Positions 57,863-64,000 of a stretch of 64,000 bases of DNA are shown in pieces; positions within the stretch are counted from its first letter, which is position 1, and each line of letters starts with the position of its first letter. Below the pieces are notes generated by a model. That model was not told the origin of the DNA and searched no databases. It saw only the letters and a list, made by a program, of their open reading frames with translations. The position numbers were made by a program, and so were the translations under genes. This DNA is from Halorientalis salina (GTDB lineage: Archaea > Halobacteriota > Halobacteria > Halobacteriales > Haloarculaceae). The stretch is from positions 62,001-126,000 of the forward strand of contig NZ_SOSC01000007.1 in the NCBI RefSeq assembly GCF_005049285.1. The letters run 5' to 3'.

Positions 57863-58231
57863 GTGCAGCGAAAGACCAAGCTCGTCGCCGCGGGCGTGGG
57901 CATCGCACTCTTGTTCGGATTACTCACGACTACGTCGACGACGACGACGCAGTTCGTCTCGCCGACGGAACTCGACGAAGGGTCACACGAGGGCGACCGC
58001 GTCAACCTCGAAGGGCGCGTGGCGAATCTCAGCACCACGGGCGAGCGCATCACGTTCGAGGTGGCCGACGGCAACGCGTCCGTGCCGGTCGTCTACGAGA
58101 AGACGATGCCGGAAACGATGGGCGAGGGCCGCGTCGTCGTCGCGAAGGGCGTCTACGAGGATGGACGGCTCCAGGCAGGCCAGCTCTCTGTCAGAGCACA
58201 CGAGGGGTCCGAGCGCCCCGAGAACACGTGA
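57863..58231 (+). CDS. CcmE-like protein lacking the heme-attachment motif
   Basis: A 122-residue protein with one N-terminal membrane helix (about 7-24) and an OB fold outside: FVSPTELDEGSHEGDRVNLEGRVANLSTTGERITFEVADGNASVPVVYEKTMPETMGEGRVVVAKGVYEDGRLQAGQLSVRAHEGSERPENT. Size, order and the neighbouring ccmA/ccmB genes identify the periplasmic-type heme chaperone CcmE of cytochrome c maturation System I. Bacterial CcmE binds heme by His-x3-Tyr and the archaeal form by Cys-x3-Tyr just after the last strand; here that region reads RAHEGSERPE, with no Cys, no Tyr, and His only by a one-residue shift. Start GTG 57863 is set by the basic QRKTK preceding the helix. Confidence 0.72.
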   Translation: MQRKTKLVAAGVGIALLFGLLTTTSTTTTQFVSPTELDEGSHEGDRVNLEGRVANLSTTGERITFEVADGNASVPVVYEKTMPETMGEGRVVVAKGVYEDGRLQAGQLSVRAHEGSERPENT

Positions 58232-58292: not shown

Positions 58293-59000
58293 GTGACCCA
58301 TCTCGCCGTCGAGGGCCTCTCGAAACGCTTCGGCCAGTTCGTGGCGCTCCAGTCGATGGACCTGACGGTTAGCGACGGCCAGTTCCTCGGGCTGTTCGGG
58401 CCGAACGGGGCCGGCAAGTCGACGCTCATCCGACTCCTGGCCACGCTCGCCACGCCGACGGAAGGGGCGATACGGCTCGACGGCGACCCGCTCGATGAGG
58501 CGTCCGAAACCATCCGTGGACGGCTCGGCGTCGTCACCCACGACACGATGCTGTACGACGATCTGACCGCCCGCGAGAACCTCCGCCTCCACGCTCGTCT
58601 CCACGGCGTCGACGCCGACCGGTGCGGGAGCCTGCTGGATCGGGTCGGTCTCACACACCGCGCCAGCGAGCGCCCGAACGCCTTCTCCCACGGCATGCGC
58701 AAGCGGCTCTCGTTCGCCCGGGCGCTCCTCCACGACCCGGACGTGCTCCTGCTGGACGAACCGTACGCCGGCTTAGACCAGCGCGCGGCTGCGACGCTGT
58801 CGAGCGTTCTCACGGAGTTCAGCGACCGGCTCGTCGTCATGGCGACCCACGACTTCGACCGCGGGTTCGGCCACTGCGACCGGGCCGTCGTCCTCGACCG
58901 CGGCCGGGTGCAACTCGACGAACGAGCGGACGAGTACGCCGACCACGACGCCTTCGAGCGTGCCTATCGGGAGGCAGTCGGTCTGGAGGCCGAGCCATGA
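58293..59000 (+). CDS. ccmA: Heme exporter ATP-binding protein CcmA
   Basis: A 235-residue ABC ATPase: Walker A FGPNGAGKSTLIR, signature NAFSHGMRKRLSFARALLHDPDVLLLDEPYAGLDQ (signature, Walker B), H-loop ATHDFDRGF. With CcmB and usually CcmC it forms the complex that releases heme-loaded CcmE. The GTG start (58293) gives VTHLAVEGLSKRFGQFVALQ, typical. It follows the CcmE-like gene by 61 nt and overlaps ccmB by four bases (ATGA at 58997-59000). Confidence 0.88.
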   Translation: MTHLAVEGLSKRFGQFVALQSMDLTVSDGQFLGLFGPNGAGKSTLIRLLATLATPTEGAIRLDGDPLDEASETIRGRLGVVTHDTMLYDDLTARENLRLHARLHGVDADRCGSLLDRVGLTHRASERPNAFSHGMRKRLSFARALLHDPDVLLLDEPYAGLDQRAAATLSSVLTEFSDRLVVMATHDFDRGFGHCDRAVVLDRGRVQLDERADEYADHDAFERAYREAVGLEAEP

Positions 59001-59677
59001 GTGCGAGGACGTACCTGCGGGCGATGTGGACCGTCGTCCGCAAAGACCTGCTCGTCGAGGTGCGGTCCAAGCGCGTACTGTCGACGTCGCTCGTGTTCGC
59101 GCTGCTGGTCGTCGTCGCGTTCGCCTTCGGCTTCGCCAAGTCCGTCTCCGATCTGACGGTCCTCGGACGTGGCGCGCTCTGGATCGCGTTCGTGTTCGCA
59201 GGCACGATCTCAGTCACGCAGGCGGTCACGGCCGAGAACCGCGACAGCGCCATCGACGGCCTGTTGCTCGCGCCGGTCGACCGCACTGCCATCTACTTCG
59301 GGAAGGTCGCGAGCAACACGATCTTCGTCGCGAGCGTCTCGCTTTTGACGCTGGTTGCGATCACGGTGTTCCTGAACTACCGGCCGCCGGTGACGATGCT
59401 CGCGGCGCTGACGGGCACCATTCTGGTCGCGTCGCTCGGCTTCTCGGCGGTCGGCGTCGTCCTCGCCTTGCTCGCCGCGCAGTCGAACCTGCGGGCGTCG
59501 CTCGTCCCCATCCTGCTTGTGCCCCTGGTCATTCCCGTCCTGCTGGCCGGGGTCGAACTCACCCGCCTGCTGAGTACCGGGGGAGACCTCACCGCGTGGC
59601 TGCGGCTGCTCGTCGCGTACACTGGTATTCTCCTCCTCGCAGGAATGGTCGTCTTCGAGGCCGTCGTCGCCGATTAG
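58997..59677 (+). CDS. ccmB: Heme exporter permease CcmB
   Basis: A 226-residue protein with six membrane helices: MSARTYLRAMWTVVRKDLLVEVRSKRVLSTSLVFALLVVVAFAFGFA at the start (the KDLLVEVRSKR element of CcmB), then WIAFVFAGTISVTQAVTAENRDSAIDGLLLAPVDRTAIYFGKVASN (conserved E-x-x-x-x-A-x-x-G-L-L-L-x-P), and LGFSAVGVVLALLAAQSNLRASLVPILLVPLVIPVLL. It joins with CcmA. Translation is coupled to ccmA. The stop is TAG in TTAG, shared with the stop of the convergent gene at 59674. Confidence 0.9.
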   Translation: MSARTYLRAMWTVVRKDLLVEVRSKRVLSTSLVFALLVVVAFAFGFAKSVSDLTVLGRGALWIAFVFAGTISVTQAVTAENRDSAIDGLLLAPVDRTAIYFGKVASNTIFVASVSLLTLVAITVFLNYRPPVTMLAALTGTILVASLGFSAVGVVLALLAAQSNLRASLVPILLVPLVIPVLLAGVELTRLLSTGGDLTAWLRLLVAYTGILLLAGMVVFEAVVAD

Positions 59678-60834
59678 AAGGTTCGGTAGGCCGCGATACC
59701 GCCGACGACGACCGCGAGCAATCCGGCCGTGAGCGCACCGGCCGGGAACTGCGGCATCGAGCCACTCGACTGGCCCTGTCCGCCGGCACCCGGCAGCGTG
59801 ACCGAGATGCTGTCACCGGGCGCCAGCGAGTCCGTGCTGGTCAGCATCGGGACCGGCATTCCGCTGGCATTGCGGAGGCGCAGGTTCGACGAGTGCTCGA
59901 CTGCAGCGGAGTCGAACCCTTGCAAGACGACTGCGAGGGAGTCGGTCTCGTGTTGCACCGGCTTGTTCAGCGACCCGTTGTCGAGCGTGTACTGGACGGA
60001 CGCGCGGATGGTCGACCCCGACGCCAGCGACGCGTTCACCGCGAGGCCCTCGGCCGTCCGCTGGTACTGGAGCTGTTGGCCCTCTATCGACGCCGAGCGA
60101 ACGGTCGCGGAGTCCGGCAGGCCGACGTTGATCGCCCCGACGAACGGCCGGTTCCCGGTGTTCTCCAGTCGAATGGTCTCGACGACGCGGGTCGTCGAGC
60201 CGTTCTGGACCGGCTGGACGATGTGACTGGCTGGGTTTCCGCCGGTCGCCGTCAGGACGGTCTCGTCGGTCGTCGGCGATCGGAGCGTGAGTCGTGCGTC
60301 AGTGGCATTTGTTCCCGTTTGGAGCGCAAAGCGGTACGGTGCACCTGACAGCCGCGTGTGGAGCCGGTAAGACCGATTCGGCTGTAACTGGTCGAGCGCG
60401 ATCCGGCCGTCCGACCCGGTTCGGACCTGTGCGACGGGTGGGCCTGTGGGAGAGGTCACCGTCACCGAGGTGTTCGTGACCGGCGTCCCGTCGGGGCGGG
60501 CGAGTCGGGCCGACAGTCCGGCCGACAGTTCGAAGTCAGCGGTCGGTTCCCGGGCGACCGCGTAGTGACTGAGGTCCTCGTGTTCCAGGCGCACGACGTA
60601 CAGCGGCGCGTCGGCGACGTCGGTCACACGATAGGAGCCGTTCTCGACGGTGGTTGAGACCGGTTGGCCGACCCGCTCGAAGTTCTCGTTCAACGGCGTG
60701 ACCGTGACGCGGTCGCCGTCGGCGGTCCCGTTGGCGACGCTGACAGTGCCAGTCACCGAGGCCGCGGCGGCGACGCCGGAGACGGTGACGAGACAGACGA
60801 GCGCGAGTGCCAGAGTGAGCAGCGAGCGTGACAT
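59674..60834 (-). CDS. Exported protein with carboxypeptidase-regulatory-like domain, Ccm-linked
   Basis: A 386-residue exported protein: signal peptide (about 1-24), a carboxypeptidase-regulatory-like beta domain (SVTGTVSVANGTADGDRVTVTPLNENFERVGQPVSTTVENGSYRVTDV), a second such domain, a beta-rich middle, and a C-terminal membrane helix (LTAGLLAVVVGGIAAYRTF). Several N-glycosylation sequons are visible (NGTA, NTSV, NRSY, NGSTT, NASG). It lies one base before ccmF on the same strand and converges on ccmB, so it is almost certainly part of the cytochrome c maturation unit. It may replace the missing CcmH/CcmI as a substrate handler (inference); no known Ccm component has this domain layout. 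Confidence 0.68.
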   Translation of the reverse strand: MSRSLLTLALALVCLVTVSGVAAAASVTGTVSVANGTADGDRVTVTPLNENFERVGQPVSTTVENGSYRVTDVADAPLYVVRLEHEDLSHYAVAREPTADFELSAGLSARLARPDGTPVTNTSVTVTSPTGPPVAQVRTGSDGRIALDQLQPNRSYRLHTRLSGAPYRFALQTGTNATDARLTLRSPTTDETVLTATGGNPASHIVQPVQNGSTTRVVETIRLENTGNRPFVGAINVGLPDSATVRSASIEGQQLQYQRTAEGLAVNASLASGSTIRASVQYTLDNGSLNKPVQHETDSLAVVLQGFDSAAVEHSSNLRLRNASGMPVPMLTSTDSLAPGDSISVTLPGAGGQGQSSGSMPQFPAGALTAGLLAVVVGGIAAYRTF

Positions 60835-60835
60835 G

Positions 60836-63208
60836 TTAATCGGAAGTCGTGGGGTCGGGATCGGTTTCCGCGGTCGGCGCGAGCGGGCGCGTCCAGACGC
60901 CGTGGGCCGGATCGAACAGGAAGATGAGCAGCATGCCGACCAGCAGCGACACGACGCTGAGTCGGAGCGGCGTCATGAGCGGGATGCGCTTGACCGTGAG
61001 CGACGCGGTGTCGCCCTGGACGGCCGCGATGACGTACGTGTCGTAGGCCAGCCCGCGGTCGATCAGGACGTCCCGGGTCTGCATGCCGCCCTGGCGGGGA
61101 TACCGCCGTTGTGCCGCCTGTCCCACCGCGACCTGGCGGTCGCCCTCGGAGACCGCCAGATTGACCGCCTGAACGCGGACGCGTTCCAGGCCGAGCGAGT
61201 CCGGCGGCGAGGCCGTCGTCCCGACGTTCGTCGGGTCGGTCACGACCACGGCGTCGGTCTGGGGGACGTAGTTCCACATGACGGCACCGCGTGCGACGAT
61301 GGAATCGCCGCGGGCGTAGCTGGCTCCGCTGGTGCCGTTCCGGGAGGTGACACCCACCCAGATGCCCGACTCGTCGAGCTGGTACACGGCCGCTCGTGGT
61401 CCCCTGCGAATGTCCGTAATGGTGCCGTGGACGACCTGCGTGGTGCTGTTCGTCGCAGTCCCGCGCTCCTGGAGTTCGGTCGTCGAGAGCGCGACCCGCT
61501 CGACGTTCGGCTGTTCCGGCAGCGAGTACGACTCGAACCCGAGCGTCTGCACCGCGTACGGCGAGTTCGGTACGTCGACCGCCTCGCCGTTAGCGCCGCT
61601 ATCGACGATGACCGACGCCTGGCCGGTGAACAGGTAGGTGAAAGCGAGCGAGAAAACGAGGACGGCGACGCCGACGTGGACGAACACCACGCCAGTCTGC
61701 TTGAGTTGGGTCCGTCGCGGCGCGCCGGGGATGCGGGCGAGACCGCGCTTGAGGACGGCCATGAGGACGTACGCGACCGGCGGGAACACCGAGAGCGCGC
61801 TCATCTGGCCGACGAGCGCGTAGAAGCCGGTTGACCGCTCGGTTCCTGCGCCGAGCGTCCAGGACTCCGAGGGTGCGTACACCGCCGCGACGACGGTCGC
61901 GACCCCGAAGAGGCCGAGGCCGGCGAGCGCGCGGCGCTTCCCCTCGACGTCGTAGTCCATGTAGAACCCCAGGAGGAGCAGGGTGAGCAGGGTGACCGGG
62001 TAGCTCCAGCGGTTGTAGTAGCGGGCGGTGACCTCCACCTCGATTCCGGTCGCGAGGTCGCGCAGGACTGGGAACGTCAGGCCCCACAACGAGATGAACG
62101 CGAGCATCCCGAGCGCGAGGACCGCGCCGTGGAGCAGCGTCGAGCGCGTCAGCCACGGCTCGTCTTCGCTGGTGGATTCCTCGCGCAGCAACCAGTAGCC
62201 CAGCGGGAGGCCTACGCCGAGGACCGCCGTCGCGCCCATGAGAATCAGCATTCCCAGGCCGGCGCCGTTGTCGGCGAACGAATGGACACTCCGGAAGACG
62301 CCGCTGCGGACGACCGTCGTCGTGTAGACGACGAGTGCGAACGTCGACGCGATCATCGCGGGCGCGAGCACGGAGTACCGATCGCCGGGCCGGTAGTTGA
62401 CGACGGCGTGGAGTGTCGCCGTCAGGAACAGCCACGGGATGAAAATCGCCGTCTCGACGGGGTCCCACGCCCAGATGCCGCCCCAGCCCAGCACCGTGTA
62501 CGACCAGAGCGCCCCGAGCGCCAGCGCGGCCGTCAGGAACAGCCACGCCGCGCGGAGCCACCTGGTGACGGAGCCGTTCCACGACCTGAACAGCCCTTCG
62601 TTCCCCCGGACGAGACCCACGAAGTGGGCGACGCCGATGGCGAAGGGCATCGTCAGCAGCGCGTAGCCGATGAACATCAGCGGCGGGTGGATGGCCATGT
62701 ACGGGTCGATCAACAGCGGGTTGAGGCCGCTGCCGGTCGTCGGCGTGCCCCCGGAGACGGTGGTGGAGATATGCTTGAACGGACTGTCCAGCAGGAGCAT
62801 GACCCCGAAGTACGTCACCGCTCCCATCGTGACTACGCCGACGAGGCGCGCGGAAGCATCGGCGAGGTCACGTCGCCAGATCGCCCAGGCTGCCACGAGC
62901 GCGGCGATGGCCGTCCACAGGAGCAGGGAGCCGGCGTTGCTGGCGTAAACGCCGGTGATCCGATAGAGGAGCGGCAGGTAGTCGGCGGTGTTCTGCCAGA
63001 CGTACGCGTTCGTGTAATCGGTCGTGACGAACTGATACGTGAGAAAAGCGAGTGCAGCGAGGAACAGCGTCGCGCCGCCAGCCACCAGTCGCGTGACGAT
63101 GGTGTCGAACTGGTCGTCACGGCGGACGTATCCGACCGCGAGCAGGACGGTCGCGCCGAGCGACAGGGCGGTGCCGCCAGCGAGCAGGGCGGTTCCGGGC
63201 GTCGTCAT
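60836..63208 (-). CDS. ccmF: Cytochrome c heme lyase subunit CcmF
   Basis: A 790-residue membrane protein with about 15 helices, longer than bacterial CcmF (about 650). The WWD domain is clear: WGGIWAWDPVETAIFIPW (about 250-270), with IHPPLMFIGYALLTMPFA and the SNAGSLLLW element near the N-terminus; histidines in HFVGLVRG and around the WWD loop would ligate heme. CcmF attaches heme to the CxxCH motif of apocytochrome. The C-terminal 200 residues form a beta-rich outer domain (GSNGTSGASYARGDSIVARG-type strands and a final helix) that matches the long CcmF/NrfE form. The stop of the upstream thioredoxin overlaps its start by four bases. Confidence 0.92.
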   Translation of the reverse strand: MTTPGTALLAGGTALSLGATVLLAVGYVRRDDQFDTIVTRLVAGGATLFLAALAFLTYQFVTTDYTNAYVWQNTADYLPLLYRITGVYASNAGSLLLWTAIAALVAAWAIWRRDLADASARLVGVVTMGAVTYFGVMLLLDSPFKHISTTVSGGTPTTGSGLNPLLIDPYMAIHPPLMFIGYALLTMPFAIGVAHFVGLVRGNEGLFRSWNGSVTRWLRAAWLFLTAALALGALWSYTVLGWGGIWAWDPVETAIFIPWLFLTATLHAVVNYRPGDRYSVLAPAMIASTFALVVYTTTVVRSGVFRSVHSFADNGAGLGMLILMGATAVLGVGLPLGYWLLREESTSEDEPWLTRSTLLHGAVLALGMLAFISLWGLTFPVLRDLATGIEVEVTARYYNRWSYPVTLLTLLLLGFYMDYDVEGKRRALAGLGLFGVATVVAAVYAPSESWTLGAGTERSTGFYALVGQMSALSVFPPVAYVLMAVLKRGLARIPGAPRRTQLKQTGVVFVHVGVAVLVFSLAFTYLFTGQASVIVDSGANGEAVDVPNSPYAVQTLGFESYSLPEQPNVERVALSTTELQERGTATNSTTQVVHGTITDIRRGPRAAVYQLDESGIWVGVTSRNGTSGASYARGDSIVARGAVMWNYVPQTDAVVVTDPTNVGTTASPPDSLGLERVRVQAVNLAVSEGDRQVAVGQAAQRRYPRQGGMQTRDVLIDRGLAYDTYVIAAVQGDTASLTVKRIPLMTPLRLSVVSLLVGMLLIFLFDPAHGVWTRPLAPTAETDPDPTTSD

Positions 63209-63675
63209 TCGTCCATCCTCCGTTCGGCTTTGTCGAGATACGAGAGGAACTGCTGCCGTTCGACGTACCCGTTGATTTTAGCCAGCCGTTCGCCCTGTGG
63301 ATCGGTCGCCACGAGTTGTGGCGGGTAGTCGGCGTTGTACTCGCTGGCCAGCCGGGACGCCTGCGCGTCGTCGGAATCCAGGTTGATGGCGACCAGGACG
63401 AACTCGTCGAGGCGGTCCTGAACGGCGGGTTTCGAGTAGACGTTCTTGTTGTAGTCCTCGCAGTAGGTACACCAAGTCGTCCAGAAGTACACGAGTATCG
63501 GCTTGTTTTCCTCCTGGGCGATCGCCTCGGCCTGCTCGTAGTCGGTGTGCCACTCCGTGCCACCGTGATAGGAGTACGATTCGTCACTCAACACCGGCGC
63601 CGTGTTCATCGACGCGTAGCCGATGCCGAGCGCTGTGACGAAGAACACGACCGTGAGGACTTTCCGCGCGTTCAT
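63205..63675 (-). CDS. Membrane-anchored thioredoxin-like protein (CcmG/DsbE-type role)
   Basis: A 156-residue protein: one N-terminal helix (about 5-24) and a thioredoxin fold with active site WTTWCTYCEDYN (C-x-x-C), KPILVYFW before it and YPPQLVATDPQGERLAKINGYV with the cis-proline after it. It sits first in the ccmF unit, so it probably keeps apocytochrome thiols reduced on the outside face, the role of CcmG. The ATGA overlap at 63205-63208 couples it to ccmF. ATG 63675 is chosen, four codons after another possible start at 63687. Confidence 0.85.
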   Translation of the reverse strand: MNARKVLTVVFFVTALGIGYASMNTAPVLSDESYSYHGGTEWHTDYEQAEAIAQEENKPILVYFWTTWCTYCEDYNKNVYSKPAVQDRLDEFVLVAINLDSDDAQASRLASEYNADYPPQLVATDPQGERLAKINGYVERQQFLSYLDKAERRMDE

Positions 63676-63850: not shown

Positions 63851-63910
63851 TGCTGACACCAACACAACAGAAGTCGGGCGGTTGCAGGCCGGAGGTGAGT
63901 GCGGGATGAC
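63851..63910 (+). other. Short upstream ORF overlapping the lipoprotein start
   Basis: A 19-codon frame (MLTPTQQKSGGCRPEVSAG) whose TGA stop overlaps the next ATG. Like the frame at 4708-4803, it reads Glu-Val-Ser-x-Gly across a GGAGGTGAGT Shine-Dalgarno site. Possible leader peptide; no homology evidence. Confidence 0.25.
63891..63898 (+). promoter_or_regulatory. Strong Shine-Dalgarno sequence for the partial lipoprotein gene
   Basis: GGAGGTGA, seven bases before ATG 63906: identical in sequence and spacing to the site at 4776-4783. Confidence 0.55.
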
Positions 63911-64000
63911 CGGGCTCACGCGCCGGTACGTGCTCGCAACTGTGCTCGCGGTCGCGATCATCGCGCTCGCGGGCTGTGGTAGCGCGCCGACGAAAGACGC
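63906..64000 (+). CDS. Lipoprotein, 5' part only
   Basis: First 31 codons of a gene cut by the window end: MTGLTRRYVLATVLAVAIIALAGCGSAPTKDA. It shows a signal peptide with lipobox LAGC, so the mature protein is lipid-anchored outside. As it is divergent from the ccm unit, a cytochrome- or redox-related lipoprotein is likely (for example a Sco-, halocyanin- or thioredoxin-like protein), but the visible part cannot decide this. Confidence 0.6.
   Translation, partial: MTGLTRRYVLATVLAVAIIALAGCGSAPTKD

Follow-up and report, generated by a model that had tools for sequence, protein, structure and literature searches.

Haloarchaeal CcmE carries an invariant, one-residue-shifted histidine as candidate heme residue and lacks the axial tyrosine

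Haloarchaeal System I cytochrome c maturation quite probably employs a third kind of CcmE heme site, in which an invariant histidine lies one residue downstream of the canonical position and the axial tyrosine is missing, whether heme is bound there as a covalent adduct or carried non-covalently. The heme residue of CcmE has been treated as fixed in two forms, HxxxY and CxxxY. A natural one-residue shift of the histidine without the tyrosine, present in a whole archaeal class, directly tests whether System I needs the covalent bond between CcmE and heme as well as the tyrosine ligand.

We analysed a 64,000-nucleotide stretch of Halorientalis salina DNA (the window), in which ccmE of the haloarchaeal type occupies positions 57863-58231 of the forward strand. 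Its intact reading frame runs from a GTG start, which lines up with the starts of its orthologues, to a TGA stop and encodes 122 amino acids. The Pfam CcmE profile (PF03100) matched the ORF with 47.5 bits (cut-off 24.6). An AlphaFold model built from a 19-sequence haloarchaeal alignment (pLDDT 80.7) displayed an N-terminal membrane anchor (helix 6-19, with low confidence there), followed by an OB-fold beta-barrel of five strands. The top structural match of this model was E. coli CcmE (1sr3, Z 14.1 over 92 residues; 8ce8_E, Z 13.1). Since OB-fold proteins other than CcmE received structural scores nearly equal to that of 1sr3, the identity of the protein as CcmE rests on the sequence match. 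The original prediction had staked itself on the lack of a second, canonical CcmE, and a search of the whole genome down to E<=10 indeed found no second CcmE. The ORF is a genuine CcmE and the sole copy in the genome. It is a case of ordinary orthology with an unusual active site, a CcmE variant found across the whole haloarchaeal lineage.

The C-terminal stretch of the protein, LSVRAHEGSERPE, contains neither cysteine nor tyrosine, and hence strictly neither HxxxY nor CxxxY, just as had been predicted. It does include one histidine, H113 (codon 58199-58201), as part of R111-A112-H113 (58193-58201, forward strand), in which A112 takes the position of E. coli H130. These three residues were invariant in the 19-sequence alignment, whose members are 77% down to 45% identical to the window protein, and share with L49-E50-G51 the distinction of being its longest invariant run. 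Searching 292 genomes of the class and 77 of the family with Pfam yielded 29 haloarchaeal CcmE above the cut-off (28 distinct sequences), and the motif [LIV][ST][VI]RAH[ED] was present at all 29 loci. The tail was also inspected in 41 CcmE sequences gathered by a peptide pattern, which reached close haloarchaeal relatives only because the motif was part of it. The residue following the motif histidine was Glu in 40 of them and Asp in one, no cysteine occurred in any of the 41 C-terminal stretches, and no tyrosine lay within eight residues of the histidine; because the collecting pattern itself includes RAH, this set shows the tail and is no proof of invariance. The absence of a heme motif, as originally proposed, therefore holds for the canonical motif, while the invariant RAH[ED] with His113 had been overlooked. 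A misplaced conserved motif had been foreseen as a possible objection: RAH[ED] is indeed conserved, though it is not a canonical HxxxY or CxxxY. With Ala at the site, His at +1 and no Tyr, the protein belongs to neither canonical CcmE subtype. Judged from the sequence, the putative heme site is an intact histidine shifted by one residue, combined with a lost tyrosine, rather than a site without any candidate heme residue.

Only nine residues follow the histidine before the protein ends, as might be expected of an artefact such as a frameshift, a truncation or a wrong frame, or of a degenerate gene copy whose intact counterpart lies elsewhere in the genome. However, the frame is intact, and the motif recurs together with comparably short tails in many genera. 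Orthologues with the same motif and the lack of any other CcmE in the genome rule this explanation out, and we assign it a negligible probability.

The register of H113 relative to the canonical heme residue was determined in several ways. A single-sequence search against solved structures paired H113 with His130 of E. coli CcmE, and a search with a haloarchaeal profile gave the same pair, via a one-residue gap. Four MAFFT modes were run with two reference sets, ten bacterial CcmE of the His type or fifty archaeal CcmE of the Cys type; all placed Ala112 in the column of His130/Cys and H113 at +1 in each of the 28 sequences. HMM-HMM alignment set A[xx]LSVRAHE against A[xx]VLAKHDE and A[xx]LLVKCPS, again with Ala112 at the heme-residue column and H113 one further. 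For the structural superpositions only the ends of the paired ranges are reported: residue 115 of the model pairs with 133 of 1sr3 and 8ce8_E, 113 with 132 of 1lm0, and 112 with 131 of 1j6q. For the model, these ranges imply a +1 register of H113, the same as in the multiple alignments. Tyr134 of E. coli had no counterpart in the haloarchaeal sequences in the alignments. Counted from the last OB-fold strand, the histidine comes one residue later, which equals an alanine inserted before it.

Gupta et al. 2022 described CXXXY as universal in archaeal CcmE, with the histidine replaced by cysteine in all sequenced archaea, and one legend of the same paper says 'almost all' (PMC9084895). Cys-type CcmE were found in nearly all non-haloarchaeal members of the phylum that we examined. 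The universal rule fails in haloarchaea, and with it the premise, taken over from this published view, that the archaeal protein uses CxxxY; the motif is no longer a unifying archaeal feature. Kletzin et al. 2015 pointed out ccm genes and a cytochrome c paradox in haloarchaea, and reported that Haloferax volcanii lacks System I (PMC4429474). In the parts available to us, their paper mentions no exception to the CcmE motif; an earlier mention elsewhere is possible.

In a CcmE tree, the haloarchaea formed one clade (98/98) on long branches, which joined the His-type bacteria (97/84) and not the Cys-type archaea. Bacterial His-type CcmE (E. coli HDENY; 1sr3, 8ce8), the nearest group in the tree and the best structural match, shares with the haloarchaeal proteins a membrane-anchored OB-fold, System I neighbours and a histidine followed by an acidic residue that opens the C-terminal tail. 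The haloarchaeal proteins differ by the +1 histidine, the alanine at the His130 position, the missing Tyr134 and a tail that is very short or acid-rich. Cys-type CcmE of archaea and Desulfovibrio (M. acetivorans C120; KCPSKY) stands apart in the tree. It has in common with the haloarchaeal type that it is an OB-fold chaperone, in archaea of a System I without CcmH, whereas the haloarchaeal proteins have neither Cys nor Tyr and carry alanine at the Cys site and histidine at the next residue, which is mostly proline in the Cys type. The haloarchaeal proteins that NCBI lists as 'cytochrome c maturation protein CcmE' (WP_232590589.1, WP_158059496.1 and WP_006067135.1) are orthologues from the same kind of cluster; we found no differences from them, and their annotation is silent on the motif. 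The nearest non-haloarchaeal CcmC in a plasmid collection belonged to Bacillota (36%), whereas the CcmE tree points to His-type bacteria instead.

Downstream of ccmE, the window encodes ccmA (58293-59000, forward strand), a heme-exporter-type ABC ATPase (PF00005) that matched the NCBIfam ccmA model TIGR01189 with E 4.6e-36 and 124.3 bits, just below the cut-off of 131.6, and whose Halorussus halophilus orthologue is annotated as ccmA. It is followed by ccmB (58997-59677, forward strand; PF03379, 85.7 bits). On the reverse strand lie the heme lyase gene ccmF (60836-63208; PF01578, PF16327 and TIGR00353), with the four histidines and the WWD motif kept, and a gene for a thioredoxin-like protein in a CcmG-like position (63208-63675; PF13098/PF13899). 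A gene for a c-type cytochrome lipoprotein with two heme-binding sites (CANCH and CASCH) starts at 63906 on the forward strand and continues past the window end at 64000; beyond it follow ccdA, ccmC (contig C21, 128116-128514; own copy listed as L067:15922-16686) and a CcmD-like ORF. No CcmH was found above the cut-off in the genome. The System I (Ccm) set of CcmABC, CcmE and CcmF is present, and CcmH is optional in archaea. CcmE is linked to, and co-occurs with, CcmA, CcmB, CcmC, CcmF and a CxxCH cytochrome c. Across 41 haloarchaeal neighbourhoods we detected ccmA and ccmB in 41, ccmF and the thioredoxin in 40, ccdA in 38 and ccmC in 33, and a homologue of the diheme cytochrome c of the window in 27. 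NCBI annotates equivalent clusters likewise in Halobacterium noricense, Halorussus halophilus and Natronorubrum bangense. The cluster amounts to a full System I that is maintained and has a client.

The apparent client, the diheme cytochrome c lipoprotein, combines SoxA/TsdA-like and class I domains. Related clusters carry either an additional halocyanin or, instead, a cytochrome c peroxidase plus a molybdopterin oxidoreductase. Between ccmB and ccmF, the reverse strand encodes a secreted protein with a carboxypeptidase-regulatory-like domain (59677-60834; PF13620, 24.1 bits, below the cut-off). Homologues of this protein occur in 23 of the 41 haloarchaeal ccm loci, and no part in the maturation of cytochrome c is known for it.

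Among the 292 haloarchaeal genomes, those with CcmE were exactly those with CcmC and CcmF (28/28), with the presence of the latter two scored as at least two PF01578 proteins per genome; if the genomes are taken as independent, log10 p is about -39. This bears on the possibility that the OB-fold has been repurposed as a structural or partner-binding ccm subunit, with heme passing directly from CcmC to CcmF. Such a role would accord with the loss of both the canonical His/Cys and the Tyr from their positions. Yet the co-occurrence with CcmC and CcmF is perfect, and R111-A112-H113 ranks with the longest invariant runs of the protein, which is unexpected for a dispensable site. We consider this reading quite improbable, and the originally envisaged different task within the ccm cluster is disfavoured by the same genome distribution and by the CxxCH cytochrome c encoded alongside.

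We regard it as reasonably likely that CcmE is a working heme chaperone that acts through the shifted His113, probably covalently and without an axial tyrosine. CcmABC(D) would load heme onto CcmE on the outer side of the membrane; CcmE would then hand it to CcmF, which would attach it to CxxCH apocytochromes. In E. coli CcmE, heme sits on the flexible tail and makes few contacts to the OB-fold; Tyr134 is not essential there, though important (PMC6204919). On the side of CcmC, His60, His184 and the WWD loop hold heme such that its vinyl edge faces the attachment site, His130 of CcmE (PMC9616876). That vinyl could plausibly also be within reach of a histidine placed one residue later in the tail, which makes H113 the candidate heme-attaching residue. 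Located at the start of the flexible tail, just past the final OB-fold strand, His113 would be the most likely residue to attach heme, and the attachment would probably still be covalent, from histidine to heme vinyl. Since no tyrosine is available as ligand, the iron would have to be bound by water or by an acidic or histidine residue of the tail. We infer heme carriage by H113, its probable covalency and the iron ligand alike. Alanine insertions beside His130 of E. coli reportedly abolish holo-CcmE (Harvat et al. 2009), and adaptation of the partner proteins would therefore be expected. The original prediction had also listed the use of another residue. This is the best supported of its options, with the qualification that the residue type is the same (His), shifted one position downstream, and not an unrelated one.

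The partner proteins also bear on whether heme might instead be carried without a covalent bond, with H113 (perhaps together with E114) ligating the iron and heme being passed on non-covalently, an option that the original prediction had named as well. The position of covalent attachment is Ala112 in all haloarchaea and, with the tyrosine ligand missing, H113 could serve as iron ligand; moreover, according to a review, the cysteine of D. vulgaris CcmE binds ferric heme without a covalent bond (PMC3884852). Haloarchaeal CcmC, however, retains the heme ligands His60 and His184 as well as W114, W119, D126 and R128, and the site to which His60, His184, W114, D126 and R128 belong (WWD/P-His) positions heme for a covalent adduct. 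In CcmF, TM-His1, TM-His2 and P-His2 were kept in 40/40 sequences, P-His1 in 38/40 and the WWD residues with rare exceptions; the TM histidines are proposed to reduce the heme of the adduct (PMC10663686), which argues against non-covalent carriage, as does the acidic residue kept after the histidine (HD/HE), like in the bacterial VLAKHDE motif. We hold non-covalent carriage, the strongest of the alternatives, to be rather unlikely.

The single candidate that we detected for an adaptation of the partners to the shifted histidine lies in haloarchaeal CcmC, which contains one extra residue between W125 and D126, inside the WWD motif, at 33/33 loci. Its form is WW[EDN]W[TS]D[VI]RL, with an additional Thr or Ser (and YW for WW in one case), versus the canonical WWxWDxRL. 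The CcmC examined from E. coli, Pseudonocardia, Vitreoscilla, Sinorhizobium, Cupriavidus and the Cys-type archaea lacked this residue. It is shared by plasmid-encoded CcmC of Metabacillus and Cytobacillus (WWVWEDPRL), and we rejected a strict coupling of the extra residue to the shifted CcmE histidine because these two Bacillota carry a canonical KCPSKY CcmE.

Directly 3' of ccmC lies the CcmD-like ORF (contig C21; L067:16686-16805), which encodes 39 residues with a single transmembrane segment, MEPLLLVGYTTLFVLLFGYMLRLQRRLDRLDQQVRDRLQ. CcmD has been called uniformly absent from archaea (PMC9084895). The ORF passes the NCBIfam model TIGR04391 (CcmD_alt) with 27.0 bits (cut-off 24), and a similar ORF follows ccmC at 32 of the 33 haloarchaeal loci, so that the absence of CcmD, like CxxxY, no longer unites the archaea.
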